From Pseudomonas cavernicola (GTDB lineage Bacteria > Pseudomonadota > Gammaproteobacteria > Pseudomonadales > Pseudomonadaceae), in assembly GCF_003596405.1 (NCBI RefSeq), contig NZ_QYUR01000008.1, positions 682,001 to 746,000 on the forward strand: a stretch of DNA of 64,000 nt, in the 5' to 3' direction. Positions within the stretch are counted from its first letter, which is position 1. Each line of letters starts with the position of its first letter. Below the pieces are notes generated by a model. It was given only the letters and a program-made list of their open reading frames with translations, had not been told where the DNA came from and searched no databases. The position numbers and the translations under genes were made by a program. Positions 5,313 to 35,896 of the stretch are shown here, in pieces.

Positions 5313-5670
5313 AAGTTAAGTTTGCGAAGCCCACCTTCTTGATGACGCCAGAAGACAAAGGGTCGAGTCAGCCCTGAGTTCGTAGCTAGATCGGTTGTCC
5401 GTATATGGACTCCTCCTCATTGCAAGCCCCCTTCGCTTTCGCTCCCGTGCCGACTGCACACGTATATTCGACCTCTGACTGCGGCATCGTATTGATGCTG
5501 GGCCATGATGGGCTATTCGCGCGCCGGCTCCCAATCGCTTCTACGTGCTTTTCGCACCTGGACAGTTGAGGGTTTTGCCGACGCCGGTTCGACCGGTTTG
5601 CCATCGTTCGGGTTGCTTCGTAATCTGGGTAGACGAGTTGCTTACTCGTTGAACGTGACGGTTTAGTAGA
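5313..5670. other. Non-coding 3' end of the IS110-like remnant
   Basis: This lies between the LysR stop and the end of the broken IS110 transposase. Short open frames exist on the minus strand (for example 5386-5604), but none has a convincing ribosome site or domain. I read it as the IS tail beyond the transposase stop. No terminal repeat or target duplication could be fixed by eye. Confidence 0.4.
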
Positions 5671-7811: not shown

Positions 7812-10154
7812 ATGCACATATCAGTAAGTCGACGTTTATCTGTTTCCCTGCTCAGCATCGCGATAGCAGGCCTGGTGTCAGGAACTGCGACTGCAGCACC
7901 GCCCGCGGGCACTATTGAGCAGGTGCCCGATGGCAACGGCGGTGTGAAGTGGCGTAAGGCGCAGATCGGCGACCCGGACGAGGATCCCAGCCAGCGTGAG
8001 CGCAGGAAGAAGCTCCTGGGTATCCAGTCGATCACCACAGGCCCGGACGGCGTCAAAGTCGAGGTGGGCAACTACAGAGGCAAGGTCCGGCAGGCCGAGC
8101 AGGGTGATGTTTTCGTCTCCGGCGATAAGCTCGATGGGCATGTCATCCTCCAGGCATTCGCGCTCTATCAACCGAACGACAACGCAACCTACTGGGCCTT
8201 GGCCGAGAATGCCGGGCGACTTGCGCAGTGGGGAATCACGGACGTCTGGTCGCCCCCGCCCTACCGCGCCGCTTCCGATTCGAAGTACGGTGAGGGGTAC
8301 GCTATCGCAGACCGTTACGACCTCGGCGCCTACGGCAAGGGCCCGACCAAGTATGGGACCGCTGACGAGCTGAGGACGGCCATCGGTGCCCTGCACGACC
8401 AAGGCATCCGCGTCCAGGTCGACGTCGTCCCGAACCAGATCATCGGGTTGGCCGGCCGGCAGGTGCTCCCCGTGACGGCAACCGATATGTACGGCACTCC
8501 GAACAATCCCGCCATCGACCACCAGCTCTACGCCGCCTACAGCAAGGGCACCGCACCGGGGCAGACCGAGCACGGTTTGATCAAGGAGTGGGACAACACC
8601 TACTTCAACGGCACCTCGCCGCAGAACCAGGGACTCTCCCGCGTGCTCACCGATGCGGCTCAGGTGCCGTGGCGGTACTTCGGCCCGAATGATTCCCGCA
8701 ACTACCTCCCCGAGTGGCTCGCCGCCAGCGACGCAGCCCGGTACGGCAAGATCAACACCGTCGACGGCTACCTGACCGCCGACAGCTGGTACGCGATCGA
8801 GAACGCGAGCAGCGGATCCGATGCGGTGTACGGCCCTGTCCTCCTCCACTACGCCGAGCCACGCTCCGGTGTCGTCAATGAGAGCTTTCTCGACTTTGCG
8901 CGCAACAATGGGCTCGCCGGAACCGACTATGAGGTGCGTGCCACTATCATCGCCGGCTTGAAGATGACGCCAAACCCCATCGGCCCACTGGTGGATGCCT
9001 ACCTGGCCAAGCAACCTGGATACTCAGCAGGCTCCGAAGTCGGTATCAATACCCTGCGATTCGACGGTCCCGGCAACGACGCCTCGCATATCGGGCAGAA
9101 CCTGATCGATTTCGAGTTCCTCGTGGGCAACGACCTCGACACCACCCGCGTCGAAGTGCGTGAGGAACAGGCGAACTGGCAACGCTACCTGCTCGACTTC
9201 GGCTTCGACGGATTCCGCATCGACGCCGCTTCCCACATCAACATGCAGGTGTTGCGCGACGAAACGGAGCAACGGCTGAAGTACTTCGCCGGCGACGACG
9301 TCAACAACCACTTGAGCTACATCGAGTCCTACGTGGCGTCGCAGGTCGACTTTCAGCAGTCGAACAAGTTCGGCCAGCTGGTGATGGATGCGGGCCCCTT
9401 CTCGGGTTTCCTCTTCTCCTTCGGGCGCGATTGGGCCCCCTTGCGCTACGCCTTCACGGCATCGCTCGTCGACCGCGTCAATCGCGCCGCAGCTATGCCC
9501 AACTGGTCGTTCGTGAACAACCATGACCAGGAGCACAACATCCTCGCAGGTATTCCCCTGACGGCGGAGGAAGCCGGTGGCACGCAGCCGGGCTCGCAGC
9601 CCTACGAGTTGCGGCAGTTCGCCAAGTACGATGAGGATCGCAATAGCGTCCAGAAGCAATGGGCCCCCTACAACGTCCCTGCCTCGTACGCGATCCTCCT
9701 GACAACCAAGGACACCGTGCCGACCGTCTTCTATGGCGACCTGTTCTCGTCCACGCAGCCGTACATGTCGACGCCGACGCCGTACCACGACGACATCGTG
9801 AACCTCCTCACGATGCGCAAGCACTTCGCCAAGGGCGAGCAGGTAATCCGCTTCGAGAACAGCAACACCGGCACCAACGGTGAAGACCTCGTCACGAACG
9901 TGCGCCTCGGCAACGACCGCACAAGCGGTGTGGCCGTGGTCGCCGGCAATGACCCGGCGCTGGATACGACGATCACCATCGACATGGGGCCCAAGCACCG
10001 CAACCAGTGGTTCGTCGATGCCATGAGTTACCACCCCGAGCGGCTCAGGACGGACAAGAACGGTGTCCTCACGGTCCAAGTCCAAGGCACGCAGAACGTG
10101 GACGTGAGGGGTTACCTAGCCGCGTGGGTTCCAGACGTGGCGGCGAGGGACTGA
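7812..10154 (+). CDS. GH70 alpha-glucanotransferase (GtfC/GtfD-like, non-permuted), secreted
   Basis: 780 residues. ATG 7812 follows AAAGGA and is preferred to an upstream start at 7722, because a signal peptide (basic MHISVSRR, hydrophobic core, cut near TATAA) begins here. GH70 motifs appear in GH13-like order: I VQVDVVPNQI, II FDGFRIDAASHIN (nucleophile Asp), III HLSYIESY (acid/base Glu), IV SFVNNHDQEHN. GYAIADRYDLG and VFYGDLFSSTQPYM are further GH70 signatures. Classical glucansucrases are circularly permuted (II-III-IV-I). The order here matches starch-acting GtfC/GtfD-type 4,6-alpha-glucanotransferases, so starch or maltodextrin is a likelier substrate than sucrose. Leucine CTC and threonine ACG codons are unusually common, which suggests transfer. 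Confidence 0.87.
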   Translation: MHISVSRRLSVSLLSIAIAGLVSGTATAAPPAGTIEQVPDGNGGVKWRKAQIGDPDEDPSQRERRKKLLGIQSITTGPDGVKVEVGNYRGKVRQAEQGDVFVSGDKLDGHVILQAFALYQPNDNATYWALAENAGRLAQWGITDVWSPPPYRAASDSKYGEGYAIADRYDLGAYGKGPTKYGTADELRTAIGALHDQGIRVQVDVVPNQIIGLAGRQVLPVTATDMYGTPNNPAIDHQLYAAYSKGTAPGQTEHGLIKEWDNTYFNGTSPQNQGLSRVLTDAAQVPWRYFGPNDSRNYLPEWLAASDAARYGKINTVDGYLTADSWYAIENASSGSDAVYGPVLLHYAEPRSGVVNESFLDFARNNGLAGTDYEVRATIIAGLKMTPNPIGPLVDAYLAKQPGYSAGSEVGINTLRFDGPGNDASHIGQNLIDFEFLVGNDLDTTRVEVREEQANWQRYLLDFGFDGFRIDAASHINMQVLRDETEQRLKYFAGDDVNNHLSYIESYVASQVDFQQSNKFGQLVMDAGPFSGFLFSFGRDWAPLRYAFTASLVDRVNRAAAMPNWSFVNNHDQEHNILAGIPLTAEEAGGTQPGSQPYELRQFAKYDEDRNSVQKQWAPYNVPASYAILLTTKDTVPTVFYGDLFSSTQPYMSTPTPYHDDIVNLLTMRKHFAKGEQVIRFENSNTGTNGEDLVTNVRLGNDRTSGVAVVAGNDPALDTTITIDMGPKHRNQWFVDAMSYHPERLRTDKNGVLTVQVQGTQNVDVRGYLAAWVPDVAARD

Positions 10155-27281: not shown

Positions 27282-28472
27282 TCAGGCCAACGAGACAACG
27301 CTGTTCAAGAGAGTTTTCACCAGCAAAGCCTGACGCGTGGCGCCGGTCTTGGCGAACACACCGCGCAAATGGGCCCGCACGGTATTTTTCATCACTCCGA
27401 GTTTGTCCGCTGCTTCATCGAGGGTCAGGCCGTCCATCATCAGTAACGCCACCTCGGTTTCGGTCGCGGTCAGCTGGAACAGTTTGCGCAGCAACCGGCG
27501 CGAGGCCTGCGGCGAATCCGCCGGGTCGCGGATGAACACCGCGACCGCCGGGCGACGGGTGCTGTCATTGGCCTGGTAGTTGAGTGGAATCGGCCGCAGC
27601 AGCAGGTTCAGCGGCATCTCCCCGGTCGGTCGCGACAAAGCGATAACCTCGACGCTGCTGGTGGCTCCGCACAGGTGAAGCCGCAGTACCGACTGAATCG
27701 CTTTCTGCAACGCGCGGTTCTCGCTCGCGGAATGCGCGCAGAGTTTGTCGTGCCGGCTGTAGAGCCCGTCTTTCGCCGCCATCAGACGGCTCGCCGCTGC
27801 ATTGCTCTTCATCACCTTGCCGCTTTCGTCGAGGATCACCGTACCGACCAGCATGCGGTCGATGGTTGCGGCATAGAGCATGCGCTCCGATTCCAGCTCG
27901 TCCAGGCTCGAGTGCAAATCGACCGCCCGTTTCAAATGCGGCAGCAGGATGGACACGAGTGCTTTCTCGGCGTCAGCGAAATCGCAGTCGAGGTGGTTGC
28001 GGCAGACGAAGAACGCGCAGTCCACGCCCGCATCAGTGCGGATATTGGCGACCAGGATGTAGCGTAGGTCGAGCGGTTTTAGATACTGTCGGTAAAAGTC
28101 GTGCTCACTCCAGGTCGCCGGACCGAACACCTCGTCGGCAGTCGCCACCCGATCCACAGGCCAGTCGATGAATGGGCAGATCGAATAGTAGTGCTCACTG
28201 TACGAAGGCTCTCCCGGCAGCAAGGGACCAAAGACCGAGGCGTTGACGATCAGACCAGGCCGATCACTCGCAGGGTTGCGCAACACCAGGGTGACGAAAC
28301 TCGCTTCGAGTCGCTGGCGGATCATTTCAAGAAAGCCCGACCAGGGTATCGACTCCTGCGGCCCCTGATAAATGCGCCCGAGAAACTCGCTCAGGCCAGC
28401 AGGATCGACCGCCGCGATGTCATACAGTGCAGGCGTTACCGTAGCGGTGACAGATGGCGTTTCGCTGATCAT
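27282..28472 (-). CDS. LuxR-family transcriptional regulator (PAS-like N-terminus, C-terminal HTH)
   Basis: 396 residues. The C-terminal LuxR HTH (about 325-390) reads TATETEVALLMMDGLTLDEA, then KLGVMKNTVRAHLRGVFAKT. The N-terminal 300 residues lack a receiver or AHL-binding signature and resemble a sensory PAS/GAF-like region. It lies at one end of the sulfate-activation / sulfotransferase locus on the same strand as cysD-cysNC. A weak copy of the locus motif lies 82 bp upstream, so it is the best candidate for the local regulator. The ligand is unknown. Confidence 0.85.
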   Translation of the reverse strand: MISETPSVTATVTPALYDIAAVDPAGLSEFLGRIYQGPQESIPWSGFLEMIRQRLEASFVTLVLRNPASDRPGLIVNASVFGPLLPGEPSYSEHYYSICPFIDWPVDRVATADEVFGPATWSEHDFYRQYLKPLDLRYILVANIRTDAGVDCAFFVCRNHLDCDFADAEKALVSILLPHLKRAVDLHSSLDELESERMLYAATIDRMLVGTVILDESGKVMKSNAAASRLMAAKDGLYSRHDKLCAHSASENRALQKAIQSVLRLHLCGATSSVEVIALSRPTGEMPLNLLLRPIPLNYQANDSTRRPAVAVFIRDPADSPQASRRLLRKLFQLTATETEVALLMMDGLTLDEAADKLGVMKNTVRAHLRGVFAKTGATRQALLVKTLLNSVVSLA

Positions 28473-28553
28473 GCTTTGCCTTCTCCGAGCCTGGGCTCGC
28501 GATGGTTTGGTCGACCTGTACTGCGAGTATTCAGCAGCGCCCCTATGGGTAAA

Positions 28554-28569
28554 TCGTCCGTTTAGCCTA
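28554..28569 (-). promoter_or_regulatory. Weak copy of the shared TTAGTC motif upstream of the LuxR gene
   Basis: Read toward the LuxR gene it is TAGGCTAAACGGACGA. This keeps TAG-CT and GACGA at the same spacing as the three strong sites (TTAGTCYGGKYAGACGAR), but the centre differs. It lies 82 bp from the start codon. It could be an autoregulatory site, but is also within reach of chance similarity. Confidence 0.35.
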
Positions 28570-28607
28570 CTTCATGCTCTCCCCCCTAATGCTCAGTCGA
28601 TGTTGTC

Positions 28608-28634
28608 GACGCGGGCGAGCAACCCGCCCGCGTC
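28608..28634 (-). terminator. Hairpin downstream of cysNC
   Basis: A 10-bp perfect stem, GACGCGGGCG (28608-28617) / CGCCCGCGTC (28625-28634), has a 7-nt loop and lies 20 bp past the cysNC stop. There is no strong T-tract, so termination efficiency is uncertain. Confidence 0.5.
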
Positions 28635-28653
28635 GGCATCCCGCTGCGCCCCG

Positions 28654-30555
28654 TCAGCCCCCCAGTTTGGCCAGCACATGCTCGACGATGCGCTCTGCCG
28701 CCGCCTCGGCGGTGTCGGTGCAGGTATCGATGCAGATGTCTGGATTCACCGGCGGCTCGTAAGGCGAATCGATGCCGGTGAAGTTCTTCAGTTCACCGCG
28801 CCGGGCCTTCTTGTACAGCCCCTTGGGATCGCGCTGCTCGGCGACCTCGATCGAGGTGTCGATGAAGATCTCGATGAACTCGCCATCGCTGGCCAGGTTG
28901 CGCGCCATCTCACGCTCCGAACGGAACGGCGAAATGAACGAAACCAGGGTGATCAGCCCGGCATCCAGCATCAGCCGCGCCACCTCCGCCACCCGGCGGA
29001 TGTTCTCGACCCGATCGGCCTCCGAGAAGCCCAGGTCCTTGTTCAGACCGTGGCGCACGTTGTCGCCGTCGAGCAGATAGGTGTGCCGCCCCAGCGCGTG
29101 CAGCTTGCGCTCGACCAGATTGGCGATGGTCGATTTACCCGCGCCGGACAGGCCGGTGAACCACAGGATGCAGGGGGTCTGGCCCTTGAGCGCTGCGTGC
29201 GCCTGGCGGTTTACGTCGATCGCCTGCCAATGCACGTTCTGCGAGCGGCGCAAGGCGAAGTGCAGCATGCCGGCACCGACCGTGTTGTTGCTCAAGCGGT
29301 CGATCACGATGAAGCCGCCGGTGTCGCGATTGTCGGCGTAGGCATCGAAAGGAATCGCCTGATCCAGGCTCAGATTGCCGACGCCGATCTCGTTCAGCTC
29401 CAGGGTCTTGGCTGCCAGTTGCTCGAGGGTGTTGACGTTGACCTTGTACTTCAGCGTTGCGCAGGTCATCCCCAGGGTGCGGCTGCCGATCTTCAACAGG
29501 TACGGCCGACCGGGCAGCATCGGCTCCTCGCCCATCCACACCAGCGTCGCTTCGAACTGATCGGCGACCGCCAATGGCGCATCGCTCAGGGCAATCACGT
29601 CACCACGGCTGATGTCGATTTCATCTTCCAGGGTCAGTGTTACCGCCTGGCCGCAGATCGCGCCTTGCTGTTCGCCAGACGTGGTGATGATGCTGGCGAT
29701 GCGGCTTTCCTTGCCCGAGGGCAGCACGCGAATCCGCTCACCACAGCGAATGGCTCCGGAGACGATGCTGCCGGCGTAGCCACGGAAGTTCAGGTTCGGT
29801 CGGTTAACCCACTGCACCGGCATACGGAATGGCGACTGGCCGAGGGTCTCATCTTCAAGTGGAACGTTTTCCAGGTACTCCATCAGCGTCGGTCCTTGGT
29901 ACCAAGGGGTGTGCACACTGGACTCGATCACGTTGTCGCCGCGCAGGGCTGACATCGGTATGCAGACGATGTTGTGCAGGCCAATCTGGGCGGCGAACTC
30001 GCGGTACTCGGCTTCGATTCGCTCGAACACCGCCTGGGAATAACCGACCATGTCCAGCTTGTTCACCGCTACCACCACCTGGCGAATGCCGATCAAGGAA
30101 GCCAGGTAGCTGTGTCTTCGGGTCTGGGTCAACAGGCCCTTGCGTGCATCGATCAGCATCACCGCAACATCGGCGGTGGAAGCGCCTGTCACCATATTGC
30201 GGGTGTACTGCTCGTGCCCCGGCGTGTCGGCGACGATGAACTTGCGCTTGTCCGTCGAGAAGAAGCGATACGCCACATCGATGGTGATGCCTTGCTCTCG
30301 CTCGGCGGAAAGGCCATCTACCAGCAGCGCGAAGTCGAGCTCGCCGCCCTGGGTACCCATCTTCTTCGAGTCAGCCTCGAGCTGGCCGAGCTGGTCCTCG
30401 AAGAGCATCTTCGATTCATACAGCAGTCGGCCGATCAGCGTGCTCTTGCCGTCGTCGACACTGCCGCAGGTGATGAAACGCAGCAGCCCCTTGGTCTGCT
30501 GCAATTGCAGGTAACGCTGGACATCCTCGGCGATCAGATCAGAAGCCTGTTTCAT
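28654..30555 (-). CDS. cysNC: sulfate adenylyltransferase subunit 1 / adenylylsulfate kinase fusion (CysN-CysC)
   Basis: 633 residues in two enzymes. The N-terminal 440 form the CysN GTPase (G1 GSVDDGKST at 31-39, G3 [15 protein letters not shown]4 NKLD), which drives APS formation by CysD. The C-terminal 170 form APS kinase (P-loop [12 protein letters not shown] near 463, [20 protein letters not shown]), which makes PAPS. The start codon shares one base with the cysD stop (TGATG), so translation is coupled. A bifunctional enzyme delivers PAPS, the sulfuryl donor for the sulfotransferase encoded 3 kb away, although PAPS also feeds cysteine synthesis. Confidence 0.95.
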
Positions 30556-31451
30556 CAGAAGTACCCCTCTTGCTTTTTCTTCTCCATGGAACCGGCCGAA
30601 TCGCTATCGATCAGCCGTCCTTGCCGCTCCGAGGTTTTCGTCAGCAGCATTTCCTGGATGATTTCCGGCAAACTTACCGCCGAGCTCTCGATCGCGCCGG
30701 TGAGCGGGTAACAGCCCAGCGTGCGGAAGCGCACCTTGCGCATTTCCGGCACCTCGCCGGGGAGCAGCGGCATGCGCTCGTCATCGACCATGATCAGCGT
30801 GCCGTCGCGGCACACCACGGGGCGCTCTTTGGCGAAATACAAAGGCACGATGGGGATATCGTTGAGGTAGATGTATTCCCAGATATCCAGCTCGGTCCAG
30901 TTCGAGATCGGGAAGACCCGCAAGCTCTCGCCCTTACGTTTGCGCGTGTTGTACAGGCGCCACAGTTCGGGTCGCTGCATTTTCGGGTCCCAGCGATGCT
31001 GCTCGGAACGGATGGAGAAGATCCGCTCCTTCGCCCGTGACTTCTCCTCGTCGCGACGGGCACCGCCAAAGGCCGCATCGAAGCCATAGTGGTCGAGTGC
31101 CTGCTTGAGTCCCTGGGTCTTCCAGATATCCGTATGCACCGCCGAGCCGTGGGTGAACGGGTTGATATTGCGCTCGAGTCCTTCGGGGTTCACATGCACC
31201 CGCAGGTCGAGGCCCAGGCGTTCGACCGTCTGGTCGCGGAACGCGATCATTTCGCGGAACTTCCAGGTTGTGTCGACATGCAGCAGGGAAAACGGTGGCT
31301 TGGCCGGGTAGAACGCCTTCATCGCCAGGTGCAGCATGACCGCACTGTCCTTGCCGATCGAATACAGCATCACCGGGTTTTCACACTCGCCCACCACCTC
31401 TCGCATGATGTGAATGCTCTCTGCTTCCAGCCTTTGCAAATGAGTCAACAT
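30555..31451 (-). CDS. cysD: sulfate adenylyltransferase subunit 2 (CysD)
   Basis: 298 residues from ATG 31451 ([20 protein letters not shown]), with GAGGAG upstream. A longer in-frame start at 31520 is not supported. It shows the PP-loop-like [14 protein letters not shown] near 30, the [10 protein letters not shown] region near 58, and [19 protein letters not shown] near 125, all typical of ATP sulfurylase small subunits. With CysN it forms APS from ATP and sulfate in the cytoplasm. A copy of the shared 18-bp motif lies 87 bp upstream, which would be unusual for a housekeeping cysteine operon. Confidence 0.95.
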
Positions 31452-31537
31452 CTCTGATCTCCTCAGTCTTGCCGGGCCTATCCACTGTGGTCGGGCCCTG
31501 CTGGAGAACACGGTATTCAAACCGTCGATGCGGACTC

Positions 31538-31556
31538 TTCGTCTAACCAGACTAAG
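31538..31556 (-). promoter_or_regulatory. Shared 18-bp motif upstream of cysD
   Basis: Read toward cysD the sequence is CTTAGTCTGGTTAGACGAA. It contains the palindrome GTCT-N4-AGAC. The same motif in the same orientation precedes the SRPBCC gene and the DUF1214 operon. It lies 87 bp from the cysD start, a fitting distance for an activator site. Confidence 0.65.
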
Positions 31557-31687
31557 AATTCCGGGCCGGGAATATTCCGCGCGGCGGGCGCAGGGCGCGC
31601 GGAAAGCGCCGCGGACGTGGAGCGGAAAAGCTATGTCCCGGTTACCTGTTGAGCGGCGTACTCGCTGCCACAGGGCTCTGCTTTTGT

Positions 31688-31799
31688 CCCCTCGCCCCTT
31701 TGGGGAGAGGGCTAGGGAGAGGGGATGGAGTGATCAGGTCCACGCCTTGGCTGCCGATTACCCTCTCCCCCAACCCCTCTCCCGTAAACGGGAGAGGGG
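31688..31799. repeat. Two inverted CCCCTCTCCC-type palindromes (pseudomonad intergenic repeat)
   Basis: One unit at 31688-31724 and a second at 31774-31799 (stem CCCCTCTCCCG / CGGGAGAGGGG around TAAA) point toward each other. They form a paired repeat in the 476-bp gap between cysD and the SRPBCC gene. Confidence 0.6.
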
Positions 31800-31852
31800 A
31801 GCCAGGGCGACGCTGTACCTGCAACAGGTAACTGGGACAGAGCCAACGAAAA

Positions 31853-31889
31853 AGGGGCCGTGGAATTGTCACGGCCCCTCGCGCACGCC
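31853..31889 (-). terminator. Rho-independent terminator of the SRPBCC gene
   Basis: On the minus strand, a GGGGCCGTG / CACGGCCCC stem with a 7-nt loop is followed by TTTTTCGTT. It lies just past the SRPBCC stop at 31928. Confidence 0.75.
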
Positions 31890-31927
31890 GCCTCAGCCGA
31901 GATGCGGCGGGAATAGCGGCAACCGCT

Positions 31928-32413
31928 TCAAACGCGCTCGCGGTACAACGCCTCTGCCCGGAGCTTGAGGCTATGCGCGATCGCATCGAAGCCCTGCTTG
32001 ACCCAGGGACCATGGTGCTCCATCACCGTCGGCGCAGTTGGCCCGAGGAACAGGTCGGTGGTGTGATAGCGACAGCTCGCCTCGCCGGTGGCTTCGATGT
32101 GCTGGTCGCGGCGAGCCGCATCAGGGTTGTCGGCCGTGGCGTACATCTCCCACGACAGCAGCGTTGGGCGCTCGAAAGCCGCCAGGTACTCGACCACCTG
32201 TATCAGCTCGCCCGGGTGCGTCGGGTCAGACAGGAACAGGTTCACCGCCTCCCCCATCCGCAAGGTCGACTCGACCTTGACCGTGAAGGGATTCCACTGC
32301 GGGTAACGTTCGAGGTCGACCAGCACCTCCCACACCAGCGCAGCGGGTGCGGCGATATCCACGGTCACTGAAGTCACTAGATGGTTCTGGACGGATAGGT
32401 TCTGAGCAGACAT
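31928..32413 (-). CDS. SRPBCC (START-like) family protein
   Basis: 161 residues. The Bet v1/START-like fold is indicated by the N-terminal strand and helix VTVDIAAPAALVWEVLVDLE and PQWNPFTVKV near 38, followed by alternating beta strands and the C-terminal helix WVKQGFDAIAHSLKLRAEAL. Members bind or cyclise hydrophobic ligands in a deep pocket. It has its own terminator and its own copy of the shared motif 120 bp upstream, in line with the neighbouring sulfotransferase operon. A ligand-binding or aromatase/cyclase role in that pathway is an inference. Confidence 0.83.
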   Translation of the reverse strand: MSAQNLSVQNHLVTSVTVDIAAPAALVWEVLVDLERYPQWNPFTVKVESTLRMGEAVNLFLSDPTHPGELIQVVEYLAAFERPTLLSWEMYATADNPDAARRDQHIEATGEASCRYHTTDLFLGPTAPTVMEHHGPWVKQGFDAIAHSLKLRAEALYRERV

Positions 32414-32531
32414 AGGATTCTCCTGTGCGCGGTGCTGTCACTGCGCTGGAAAGTGCCGAGGGCACAAGGGGGAAAAGACCGGGCGCGAAGAGCCCGCTCC
32501 CCCATCTTGCCCAGTGCCTTGCACTAACCAC

Positions 32532-32550
32532 CTCGTCTACCCGGACTAAA
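32532..32550 (-). promoter_or_regulatory. Shared 18-bp motif upstream of the SRPBCC gene
   Basis: Read toward the SRPBCC gene it is TTTAGTCCGGGTAGACGAG, matching the cysD and DUF1214 copies at TTAGTC, GG and AGACGA. Its near edge is about 120 bp from the start codon at 32413. Confidence 0.65.
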
Positions 32551-32626
32551 TCTCGCTCGATCATCGCACTGCCCTTCACCCCCTCAATACCAGCGCCTCT
32601 GCGAGGCTGGCAGAGACATCTGCCGG

Positions 32627-32645
32627 GTTAGTCCGGTCAGACGAA
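32627..32645 (+). promoter_or_regulatory. Shared 18-bp motif upstream of the DUF1214-sulfotransferase-SDR operon
   Basis: The plus strand reads GTTAGTCCGGTCAGACGAA, about 134 bp before the DUF1214 start at 32780. It lies only 77 bp from the divergent SRPBCC copy, so the two operons share a regulatory region with outward-facing sites. Confidence 0.65.
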
Positions 32646-32779
32646 GAATGCCAGCGCCCGGCATTTATATCGTCCGTAGCAGTGGTCTGGGCATACACCG
32701 CCCCACCCCGCTACGTACCCGCGAAACCTACCGGTTTCAGCCTTCCCTGCCCGATGCCCAGGGCGACAGGAGATTCAAC

Positions 32780-33889
32780 ATGGCAACAGACTCGATTGAC
32801 GAGCAATTGCTCAGCGGCCAGACATGGAGCACCTTCTGCGATGCACTGAAACGCAGCGGCGAACAGATCCTCCGTCCGGAGGCCCCCGCCGATGCCCAGA
32901 CCCGCGCCGAAGGCTTCCGCTACCTGAGCCGGCTGATGCGGATCGCCCTGGAAATGCACGTCGAGTTCGCCGACCCGGACTTCCCCGGTTTCTTCTCGCC
33001 ATCCCACGAAACCGCCAAGATCGGCGCGGACAACCCGGACAACCTCTACCAGTACGCACGCCTCAACGGTAATAACGAATACCGCGTCAGTGGCCAGCGC
33101 GGCAGCGTGGCCTACCTCAGCTTCGGCACCCAGAAAGGCGGCTACGAAACCGACGGGACGATGACGCCCACCGGCTTCATCGACGCTGAGCAACTCGAAC
33201 TGAACAGCGATGGCAGTTTCGAGATCACCCTCAGCCAGCATCCCAGCGCAGGCAACTGGTTGCGCCTGGAACCGGCAAGCAACGCCCTGATCGTCCGCCA
33301 GACCTTCCTCGATCGCAAAGCGGAGAAGCCTGCGCAATTGCGCATCGAGCGCATCGGCAGTAGCAACCAGCCGGACGCCCTCGACCCGCACCGCCTGCAC
33401 CAGGGCCTGCAACGCGCCGCCAGCTTCGTGGAGAACACCGCGCGCCTGTTCGCCGACTGGGCCATGGACTACCAGCGGCACCCCAATCAGCTCCCGCCAG
33501 CCAACCAGGCCCTGTGCCAGTCGGTCGGCGGCGATCCGAACATTTTCTATTACCACTCCTACTGGTCCCTCGCCGACGACGAAGCGCTGCTCATCGAAGT
33601 CGAGTCAGTGCCTGAGTGCGACTTCTGGAACCTGCAGATCAACAACTACTGGATGGAGTCGTTGGACTACCGCTACCACCGTATCTGCCTGAACAAGCAC
33701 TCGGCCCGCTACAACGACCAGGGTGGCGTCACGCTGGTGCTCAGCGCCCGTGACCCCGGCCTGCCGAACTGGCTCGAAACCGCCGGACATCGCCAGGGCA
33801 CCCTGTGCCTACGCTGGGTCGGCGCCAGCCATCACGTCCACCCGACCACCCGCGTGGTCAAGCTCGACAGCCTCAAGGAGGCCCTATGA
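32780..33889 (+). CDS. DUF1214 domain protein
   Basis: 369 residues from ATG 32780, with ACAGGAG upstream; the longer frame from 32648 is not used. The C-terminal half carries the DUF1214 region: DEALLIEVESVPECDFWNLQ, then NYWMESLDY and a final GTLCLRWVG. The first 120 residues are helical (QTRAEGFRYLSRLMRIALEM). No signal peptide is seen. No enzymatic activity is established for the family from what I can read. The stop overlaps the ATG of the sulfotransferase (ATGA), so the two proteins are made together and may act on the same substrate. Confidence 0.82.
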   Translation: MATDSIDEQLLSGQTWSTFCDALKRSGEQILRPEAPADAQTRAEGFRYLSRLMRIALEMHVEFADPDFPGFFSPSHETAKIGADNPDNLYQYARLNGNNEYRVSGQRGSVAYLSFGTQKGGYETDGTMTPTGFIDAEQLELNSDGSFEITLSQHPSAGNWLRLEPASNALIVRQTFLDRKAEKPAQLRIERIGSSNQPDALDPHRLHQGLQRAASFVENTARLFADWAMDYQRHPNQLPPANQALCQSVGGDPNIFYYHSYWSLADDEALLIEVESVPECDFWNLQINNYWMESLDYRYHRICLNKHSARYNDQGGVTLVLSARDPGLPNWLETAGHRQGTLCLRWVGASHHVHPTTRVVKLDSLKEAL

Positions 33890-35082
33890 CCAGCCACCCT
33901 TCACCGACCCCGGAATTCGACGTTGACAGCCTGCTGGCCCAGGCCAGCGCTCGCGCGGGAGGCTTGAGCGACTTCGGCCCCGGCAACTACCGCGAGGCAC
34001 TGCAGGTGATGTTCGACTCACTGCGCGACGAAGCCGGCCTGTCCGCCCAGGGCCGGGCCCTGCTGCACGAGAAACTGCTCGGCCAGCTAGCCAATCGCCT
34101 GGTGATCGAAGACTACTGCCGACGCTATCCAGAGATCGAACAGCAACCCCTCGACGATCCACTGGTCATCGTCGGCCTGCCGCGCACCGGCACCACCCTG
34201 CTGCAACGGACCCTGGCGGTGGACCCGCAGTTCCACTCGGCGGCCTGGTGGGAAACCCGTTATCCCGCGCCGCTGCCGGGCGAGTCCCTCGACGATCCGG
34301 CCCAACGCACCGCTCGGGCCTGCGCCGAAGTCGCCAGCATGCTGGAGTACCTGCCGCAGATCCTTGCAATTCACCCACTGGACGCGCTGCAGGCCGATGA
34401 GGAATTCATGCTCATGGAGCATTCCTTCATGTCCGCCCTGGATTCCTACGCCAACGTGCCCAGCTATACCGCCTGGCTCGACCGCCAGGACCAGACCCCG
34501 GTGTACGACTATCTGAAGAAGATGCTCCAGTTCCTCCAGTGGCAGCAGCGCCGGCGCGGCCGCCCGGCTGGCCGCCGCTGGCTGCTGAAGAGCCCGCAAC
34601 ACCTGCACACACTGGAACTGCTGTTCAAGACTTTCCCCCGTGCGCAGGTGATCCTCACCCACCGCGAGCCAGGCAAAACCATTCCCTCCATCGCCAGCTT
34701 CGTCCACACCCTCTGGCAGATGTATAGCGACAGCCCCGATCCGCGCCTAGTGGGTGCGCAATGGAGCACCCGCATGGCGCGAGCTATCCGCCACAGCATG
34801 GAAGTGCGCGACGGGCAGCCGGCCGAATGCTTCCTCGACGTGCGCTTCGAGGACACCTTGGCCGACCCGCTGGCCGTGATCGAGAGGATCTATCGCTTTG
34901 CCGGCCTACCGCTAGGCGATGACGTGCGCGCGGCGATGGCGGACTGGCTCGCGCAGAACGGCCGCGAGAAACGCGCGGCACACGGCTACAGCCTGGCCCA
35001 GTTCGGCCTGAGCGAGCGCCAACTGGAGGACGATTACGCGGACTACCGCGCCCGTCACCTCAACGCCGAAACCCGGATCTGA
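33886..35082 (+). CDS. PAPS-dependent sulfotransferase
   Basis: 398 residues. The 5'-phosphosulfate loop VIVGLPRTGTTLLQRTLAVD is at about 94-113. The 3'-phosphate region includes WLLKSPQHLHTLELLF near 230 and ILTHREPGKTIPS near 260. The length and the long helical N-terminus place it in the bacterial Sulfotransfer_3-like group, which sulfates small hydroxylated molecules in the cytoplasm. It starts within the DUF1214 stop and is followed 25 bp later by an SDR gene. The adjacent cysD-cysNC operon can make its donor. The acceptor is unknown. Confidence 0.9.
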   Translation: MTSHPSPTPEFDVDSLLAQASARAGGLSDFGPGNYREALQVMFDSLRDEAGLSAQGRALLHEKLLGQLANRLVIEDYCRRYPEIEQQPLDDPLVIVGLPRTGTTLLQRTLAVDPQFHSAAWWETRYPAPLPGESLDDPAQRTARACAEVASMLEYLPQILAIHPLDALQADEEFMLMEHSFMSALDSYANVPSYTAWLDRQDQTPVYDYLKKMLQFLQWQQRRRGRPAGRRWLLKSPQHLHTLELLFKTFPRAQVILTHREPGKTIPSIASFVHTLWQMYSDSPDPRLVGAQWSTRMARAIRHSMEVRDGQPAECFLDVRFEDTLADPLAVIERIYRFAGLPLGDDVRAAMADWLAQNGREKRAAHGYSLAQFGLSERQLEDDYADYRARHLNAETRI

Positions 35083-35107: not shown

Positions 35108-35896
35108 ATGTTGCTAAAAGACAAAGTGATCATGATCTCCGGCATCGGCCCCGGGCTGGGTGTGAAACTGGCCGTCGAGGCCGCCCGCGAAGGCGCTGCC
35201 GGGGTAGCCATAGCCGCCCGTACCGAGCAGAAACTGATCGACGCCGAAGCGCAAATCCGCGCCATCGGCAGTGCCTGCGAGGTGCTGCGCCTGCCCACCG
35301 ACATCAGTGACCGCAGCGCCTGCAAGCGTTTCGTCGAGGCCAGCGTGGAACGCTTCGGCAGGATCGACGGCCTGATCAACAGTGCCTATATCCATGGCGA
35401 CTTCATGCCCGTGGAGTCGGGCAACCTGGAGCACTGGCGCGAAGTGTTCGACATCAACCTGTTCGGCACCCTGACGCTGACCCAGGAAGTACTGCCGCAG
35501 ATGAAGGCGCAACAGGCCGGCGCCATCGCCATCATCAATACCCTGGGCGCCCAGAAGCCCTATGCCGGCGGGGCCTGCTATGCCGCGTCGAAGGGCTCGC
35601 TCGCGGTGGCGGTGCGTTACCTGGCCAGCGAACTGGCGGCGCATGGCATTCGCGCCAACAGCCTGGCGTGCGGCTGGATGTGGGGCGAACCGGTGCAGGC
35701 GCATATCCGCCAGACTGCCGCCACCCACGGCATAGCCGAGCAGGAAGTGATCGACCAGTACAGCGCGCAGATCCCCGGGGGGCGGATGCCGACCGACAGC
35801 GACTGCGCCCGGGCCGCCCTGTTCCTGGTTTCCGACTATGCCGGCGCGATCAACGGTGCGCTGCTCGATGCCAACGGCGGCGAATACATGCGCTGA
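35108..35896 (+). CDS. short-chain dehydrogenase/reductase (SDR)
   Basis: 262 residues with a Rossmann fold. The nucleotide loop is SGIGPGLG at about 11-18, the acidic Asp is in LPTDISDRS, and YAASK has Tyr158 and Lys162. The residue at the usual catalytic Ser position (13 before Tyr) is Thr145 (INTLGAQ), and the common NNAG is replaced by NSAY, so the active site is slightly atypical. It probably oxidises or reduces a hydroxyl or keto group of the molecule handled by the sulfotransferase. It is the third gene of the operon, with its own ribosome site AGAAGGA. Confidence 0.88.
   Translation: MLLKDKVIMISGIGPGLGVKLAVEAAREGAAGVAIAARTEQKLIDAEAQIRAIGSACEVLRLPTDISDRSACKRFVEASVERFGRIDGLINSAYIHGDFMPVESGNLEHWREVFDINLFGTLTLTQEVLPQMKAQQAGAIAIINTLGAQKPYAGGACYAASKGSLAVAVRYLASELAAHGIRANSLACGWMWGEPVQAHIRQTAATHGIAEQEVIDQYSAQIPGGRMPTDSDCARAALFLVSDYAGAINGALLDANGGEYMR

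Follow-up and report, generated by a model that had tools for sequence, protein, structure and literature searches.

Gene Content and Operator Sites of the Sulfation Locus

The window analyzed here, a 64,000-nucleotide stretch of the Pseudomonas cavernicola genome (contig NZ_QYUR01000008.1, positions 682,001 to 746,000), contains a locus that combines genes for sulfate activation (cysD and cysNC), a sulfotransferase gene and the gene of a LuxR-type regulator; an 18-bp motif recurs upstream of cysD, of a gene for an SRPBCC protein, and of a DUF1214 gene (Table 1). The motif is a real operator, and the neighboring LuxR-type protein is most likely the regulator that binds it, as judged from sequence comparisons. 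The DUF1214, sulfotransferase and short-chain dehydrogenase (SDR) genes are divergent from the LuxR-type, cysNC, cysD and SRPBCC genes; ATP sulfurylase, adenosine 5'-phosphosulfate (APS) kinase and sulfotransferase domains all occur at the locus, which completes the domain set of a predicted sulfation system dependent on 3'-phosphoadenosine 5'-phosphosulfate (PAPS).

Table 1. Genes, operator sites and promoter elements of the sulfation locus, in positions of the window.
Feature	Position	Strand	Remarks
LuxR-type regulator, 396 amino acids, proposed binder	27282-28472	-	GerE helix-turn-helix (HTH) at residues 333-381
Weak site GTAGGCTAAACGGACGAT	28553-28570	-	Upstream of LuxR-type gene
cysNC, ATP sulfurylase large subunit fused to APS kinase (PAPS synthesis)	28654-30555	-	
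cysD, ATP sulfurylase small subunit	30555-31448	-	
-10-like TACCGT, cysD	31510-31515	-	22 nt after dyad
Operator dyad TTAGTCTGGTTAGACGAA	31538-31555	-	Upstream of cysD-cysNC
SRPBCC / polyketide cyclase-like protein	31928-32413	-	
Dyad TTAGTCCGGGTAGACGAG	32532-32549	-	Upstream of SRPBCC gene
Operator dyad TTAGTCCGGTCAGACGAA	32628-32645	+	Upstream of DUF1214-sulfotransferase-SDR operon
-10-like TATCGT, DUF1214	32668-32673	+	22 nt after dyad
DUF1214 protein	32780-33889	+	
Sulfotransferase (Sulfotransfer_3)	33886-35082	+	
SDR	35108-35896	+	

The motif is an inverted repeat with the consensus TTMGTCYGnnCRGACKAA and two half-sites, and thus has the shape of a dimer's operator, a character that the original prediction of a shared promoter motif had missed. 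The cysD, SRPBCC and DUF1214 copies match their own reverse complements at 12, 8, and 12 of 18 letters, respectively; TTAGTC, GG and AGACGA are invariant across all three, as had been predicted, and the three 18-mers were found letter for letter, although the ranges first given for them were one base too long. Measured from the start codons chosen here (ATG at 31448 for cysD, 32413 for SRPBCC and 32780 for DUF1214; the mechanically called open reading frames (ORFs) of cysD and DUF1214 start further upstream), the near edge of the motif lies at distances of 89, 118, and 134 bp; of the earlier values of 87, 120, and 134 bp, the last is unchanged. The weaker fourth copy reported before the LuxR-type gene is real, and autoregulation through it is possible; the evidence for luxR autoregulation and for the SRPBCC promoter is weaker than that for cysD and DUF1214.

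The claim that these copies exceed chance expectation was borne out in the window, where four matches with at most three mismatches stand against 0.31 expected (standard deviation 0.53) and none of 100 shuffles reached four, and in the proposed search of the whole 5,626,424-base genome, where the three copies of the window are the only exact ones. The next-best matches, with two mismatches, lie at G000:C2:1908307 (G000 being the source genome) and at window position 5620; the latter, which has a LysR-type gene on one side and a transposase-like ORF of the opposite strand on the other, was treated as chance or a relic. No match with fewer than two mismatches was found in 98 other Pseudomonas genomes, none of which carries the LuxR ortholog. 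Loose genome-wide matching at two to three mismatches was discarded as evidence, as control patterns match equally or more often; with up to three mismatches, the reversed control pattern gave 39 and 38 matches vs. 16 and 11 for the motif.

Conservation of the Operator Across Genomes

An ortholog of the LuxR-type regulator (at least 66% identity) was found in 9 of 398 Pseudomonas genomes, the source genome included. A scan of the named collection with ortholog alignment yielded 53 loci; 36 of these together with two others make up the 38 ortholog loci (regulator at 45% identity or more) of the following comparison, which come from Pseudomonas, Paraburkholderia, Cupriavidus, and one Burkholderia. 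With a matrix built from the window's three sites only, and a site defined as a score of at least 15 bits within 300 bp upstream, this comparison of homologous promoters, also suggested with the original prediction, found a site upstream of cysD in 34/34 loci and upstream of DUF1214 in 32/33 (33/33 at 12 bits). The corresponding count for SRPBCC is 24/33, part of which is the DUF1214 site viewed from the opposite side; two sites of at least 12 bits are present in the divergent SRPBCC/DUF1214 region of 21 of 25 loci, window included. Upstream of luxR, a site was found in 4 of 38 loci at 15 bits or more, and in 26 of 38 at 9 bits or more. Operon-internal genes in the ortholog loci had none (sulfotransferase 0/32, SDR 0/29, cysNC 0/34; 0/95 in total), and 60 column-permuted matrices reached at most one locus for any gene; the random control of this count could overlap true sites. 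Genes were dropped when the alignment started more than 40 residues from the query start, identity was below 42%, or fewer than 150 bases lay upstream; the 42% floor admits some SRPBCC and SDR paralogs.

Per-column information reaches 1.46-1.63 bits within the motif, compared to 0.23-0.49 bits in the 5' flanks and 0.41-0.89 bits in the 3' flanks, for sites of at least 12 bits (at least 9 for luxR) within distance ranges that were chosen after seeing the data. The motif appears as a conserved island amid diverged flanks across Pseudomonas, Paraburkholderia and Cupriavidus. The same operator stands before the genes of sulfate activation and of sulfotransfer, which argues for the joint control of both that had been proposed.

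The source genome contains a second cysD (G000:C2:77553-78455), 73% identical to that of the locus; sole-copy status, which would have marked the locus gene as part of assimilatory sulfate reduction, does not apply. The dyad is absent upstream of this second copy, where the best score is 7.2 bits; since another cysD exists without the dyad, the locus cysD would seem to serve a PAPS supply of its own and not assimilation. A 214-bp stretch at 31630-31843, with the SRPBCC gene on one side and the promoter of cysD on the other, has outer inverted repeats of 22 nt and inner arms GGGAGAGGG/CCTCTCCC, and resembles a small mobile repeat.

Promoter Layout

In all 35 distinct cysD promoters, window included, the hexamer TAnnnT starts exactly 22 nt downstream of the dyad; the same spacing occurs in 31 of 34 distinct DUF1214 promoters, and two further ones have it at 21 nt. 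The expectation at one offset, from shuffled flanks, is about 0.2; the count was drawn from the same rows as the flank-conservation count. If TAnnnT is the -10 box (-12 to -7), the dyad would extend from approximately -52 to -35, with its center near -43.5, which is a class II activator position. A set of 28 loci, which comprised orthologs, paralogs and further members of the family, yielded 33 TAnnnT hexamers at offsets 12-33 in 198 oriented flanks (each site being read both ways). Of these hexamers, 24 fall at 21 or 22 nt; ten have the 22-nt spacing, and eight of the ten belong to ortholog loci.

Association With the LuxR-Type Regulator

The sulfotransferase occurs in 19 of 398 Pseudomonas genomes; all 19 hold some member of the LuxR family, and nine have the ortholog. 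The other ten carry cysD-cysNC-DUF1214-sulfotransferase plus SRPBCC and SDR in one cluster, with no intact LuxR ortholog, and in none of them does the dyad precede cysD (0/10; best score 3.6 bits). This co-loss of dyad and ortholog (34/34 loci with the ortholog vs. 0/10 without an intact one; Fisher p 4e-10, for loci that are not independent) is the best single argument for the neighboring LuxR-type protein as the binder, a role for which it had been nominated originally and which is well supported at the level of sequence. The window's MocR-type and response-regulator genes, used as queries, had no match in 15 loci, 8 of them ortholog loci.

Among the ten genomes without an intact ortholog, one (L099; G266:C1:3862500-3882000) retains a broken remnant of it at 9597-10050 of this region, 72-98% identical to the window protein; this genome retains the operon, without the dyad at cysD. 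An alternative conserved palindrome around TGTTAAAACA, noted by eye, is common to all ten (L247-L256); it stands roughly 70-90 bp upstream of cysD, where the dyad is absent, as TGATGTTAAAACATCA or a near version of it, and suggests another regulator.

The C-terminal HTH of the window regulator matches PF00196 (28 bits vs. the Pfam cut-off of 23.5), as befits a member of the LuxR family; no autoinducer-binding N-terminal domain is found among its Pfam domains, which separates it from the quorum-sensing LuxR proteins proper. Its structure model is poor (mean predicted local distance difference test score 64.3; predicted template modeling (TM) score 0.43). The fold matches, GAF/PAS proteins, EL222 and VqmA, have TM-scores below 0.4 among the 50 matches listed, and give only a hint that the N-terminal part resembles GAF/PAS sensor folds.

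A Wider Set of Dyads at Steroid-Degradation Genes

A looser form of the dyad, TMGTCYNNNNRGACKA, occurs at 24 places in the source genome, a count that includes duplicated stretches, with 4 places on contig C4 and another 7 spread over two copies at C8:955-973 kb. Nine genomes with the ortholog contain 14-24 such places, vs. 0-5 in 20 genomes without the LuxR family. The reversed control outnumbers the looser dyad in every genome of both groups, with 26-45 matches among the nine and 14-58 among the twenty; since this control is commoner everywhere, composition by itself makes the looser pattern rare, and the evidence lies in the contrast between genomes alone. Gene context was read for all places except C2:174824, C2:1084957, C3:247876, and C8:575693; the dyad sequence at C2:174824 recurs in genomes without the LuxR family. 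With gene starts approximately 70-140 bp downstream, dyads precede an SDR + FadD3-type ligase pair, an EthD gene, a KstD-like dehydrogenase gene and a DUF1302 gene (C2:1905741-1912538), and the gene of an HsaC-like dioxygenase (C3:22572). Another lies ca. 400 bp before a FAD dehydrogenase gene (C2:1901440), and on C8 two paralogous LuxR-type genes each have a dyad next to them, in the stretch that separates SDR from KshA genes. In the ortholog loci, sites of at least 9 bits were absent upstream of EthD (0/4), SDR2 (0/6), and ACS (0/8); the EthD link therefore rests on the source genome, where the upstream site has two mismatches, and on G260, where EthD and the next SDR are near luxR.

The families of these dyad-linked enzymes belong to the 9,10-seco pathway of steroid degradation. 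KshA_C was found in all 28 genomes that carry either the ortholog or the ~39% paralog, in 10/10 tested genomes (of 41) with only 34-38% relatives, and above cut-off in 0/20 genomes without the LuxR family, with one sub-threshold match (G011). The LuxR family travels with 9,10-seco steroid genes, in the manner of TeiR/TesR-type regulators. With the wider dyad present at steroid-degradation loci elsewhere in the genome, the original description of the regulon as "local" is wrong; the sulfation locus has the appearance of one branch of a regulon for steroid catabolism.

Two of these regions appear in more than one copy in the assembly. The 15.6-kb contig C4 (G000:C4:1-15641; L202) repeats itself near-perfectly in inverted orientation (99.5%), and it is 99.6-99.7% identical to C2:1.910-1.918 Mb (KstD-like, DUF1302, DUF1329), either by amplification or as an assembly artefact. 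The KshA/LuxR-paralog region (G000:C8:945000-978119; L088, L089) occurs twice, in inverted orientation and with 99.4% identity between the copies over 8.9 kb, beside a third stretch of 94% identity with a weak, stop-interrupted KshA match.

Dyads also occur near further members of the regulator family: three each in two Paraburkholderia loci at 52-53% regulator identity, one each in a Sphingobium and a Burkholderia arboris record, and, in the plasmid collection, four in 41 kb of Caballeronia, two in Cupriavidus necator and two in Vibrio alfacsensis. In the V. alfacsensis plasmid NZ_CP140104.1 (L230), they precede an electron-transfer flavoprotein gene and an SDR gene in a steroid-type catabolic cluster; the source of this plasmid was the gut of a diseased turbot. 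At E <= 1e-60, the LuxR family was found in the source genome and in G621, another gammaproteobacterium, and in no other of 369 genomes of the class.

A Probable LuxR-Type Activator and the Alternatives

It is highly probable, in our view, that the motif is the operator of the neighboring LuxR-type regulator, acting as a class II activator within a larger steroid-degradation regulon. A dimer of this protein would bind the dyad through its two HTH domains and, positioned 22 nt upstream of the -10 box, would replace the -35 box. The cue would be a steroid or steroid catabolite, probably sensed by the N-terminal domains; in response, the regulator would turn on one branch of the regulon, made up of cysD-cysNC as an accessory operon for PAPS synthesis, SRPBCC, and DUF1214-sulfotransferase-SDR. 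The other promoters of this regulon bear a sister form of the dyad and would probably be served by paralogous LuxR-type regulators.

Several observations weigh against this interpretation. TAnnnT is absent at 22 nt in the SRPBCC (0/29; the window has CAAGAT there) and luxR promoters (0/27), and the site upstream of luxR is weak. The loci share ancestry throughout, and the counts are not independent; the ten genomes of the co-loss form a separate branch with a different gene order, so that the co-loss may be a single event, and one of them has the dyad before DUF1214 (L255:8042). No strict dyad was found near two relatives at 47-48% identity (L133, L134), around two LuxR-type genes of G621, in ten loci at 28-37% identity (L144 and L146-L154; 0/10), or in 8 of 15 regions around 33-38% relatives; since the dyad is present near some relatives and absent near others, the code belongs to a part of the family. 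Finally, paralogous LuxR-type proteins could bind the same sites. In its full form, this alternative, which we consider unlikely, holds that the sites are bound mainly by the paralogous steroid-gene regulator (G000:C8:955323, 970804-971916), while the neighbor serves other promoters or both cross-regulate. The same core dyad does occur at the paralog loci, with TAnnnT at 21-22 nt, and the ~39% paralog is present in 9/9 genomes with the ortholog; yet the promoter-proximal outer base is A in 69/69 distinct cysD and DUF1214 sites and T in 9 of 14 others (chosen for TAnnnT at 21 or 22 nt), the spacing mostly differs (22 nt for the sulfation type vs. 21 nt for the others), and genomes with other LuxR relatives and a sulfation operon lack the dyad at cysD in 10/10 cases.

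Operators of TetR-type proteins are palindromic, as is the motif, which also overlaps the promoter; a TetR-type protein, KstR, controls actinobacterial steroid genes according to a statement in PMC8399759. That a repressor of this other family binds the dyad is nevertheless very improbable, given that a LuxR-type gene accompanies the loci, that the MocR-type and response-regulator genes, the sole other regulators of the window queried, matched nothing in the 15 loci, and that a dyad at the -35 position with a fixed 22 nt to the -10 box has the layout of an activator site; a repressor encoded away from the locus may still exist. The least credible explanation, to which we attach almost no weight, attributes the similarity to chance or to the shared ancestry of a short duplicated stretch devoid of regulatory function. 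Loose matches are indeed common across the genome, whereas exact ones are not; the conserved island in diverged flanks and the empty operon-internal genes (0/95) already contradict this explanation.

A Possible Sulfation Step and Comparison With Known Systems

If confirmed, the operator would give the regulation of steroid catabolism a defined DNA target and would point to sulfation as a step, so far unexplained, in the metabolism of steroids. Such an operator, with its constant promoter geometry, would make the regulon readable from sequence, would set apart a sulfation branch within it, and could serve in designs for steroid reporters. More tentatively, and with more doubt than conviction, many Pseudomonas and Burkholderiales may use sulfation as a working step when they degrade steroids aerobically. 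The regulon would bring its own PAPS synthesis and sulfotransferase, perhaps turning a hydroxyl into a leaving group or trapping an intermediate, and the sulfated compound would be acted on by DUF1214 and SRPBCC proteins; GTCY-N4-RGAC would be an operator code common to LuxR-type steroid regulators, with a range that extends from Pseudomonas to Burkholderiales and Vibrio. The sulfate ester may be a leaving group, a trap, or a detoxification product. The sulfation module is present in Pseudomonas resinovorans DSM 21078 (L105); for another strain of this species, Table 2 of PMC4810484 lists growth on testosterone and none on cholate.

The closest solved structures to the sulfotransferase are PDB 2zq5 (E 2.1e-52) and 2z6v (E 3.9e-39), neither of which carries a functional annotation in the structure listing. 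We take both to be mycobacterial and one to be encoded beside cholesterol-catabolism genes; 2zq5 is presumably Rv3529c. Rv3529c, Rv3530c and Rv3531c are tabled among mycobacterial cholesterol genes, with no sulfotransferase named in that table (PMC6429209). The regulation of these mycobacterial sulfotransferases differs from that of the window sulfotransferase.

By description, the window regulator resembles TeiR/TesR of Comamonas testosteroni, which is also of the LuxR type and accompanies 9,10-seco steroid genes; TeiR/TesR is stated to be needed for steroid-gene induction, in a positive role (PMC6678751; PMC8399759). By contrast, TeiR has been described as a membrane protein with a polar location and with kinase activity, and no operator is given in the accounts of these two papers, whose main text does not contain the word sulfotransferase (PMC6678751; PMC8399759). 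A search of the open-licence literature found neither such an operator nor a sulfotransferase with steroid genes. In class II activation at the lux box, a dyad of approximately 20 bp near -42.5 is bound by a dimer with the HTH_LuxR domain. The window dyad is of similar size and of similar predicted position, and its proposed binder is an HTH_LuxR protein; it differs in its half-site, TTMGTCYG, in the predicted center at -43.5, and in a regulator without a Pfam autoinducer-binding domain. KstR and KstR2 each exemplify one operator common to several steroid-degradation operons of actinobacteria, a principle that would recur in the genome of the window. The actinobacterial regulators are TetR-type repressors, as described in PMC8399759; here, the same principle would be realized in proteobacteria by a putative LuxR-type activator.

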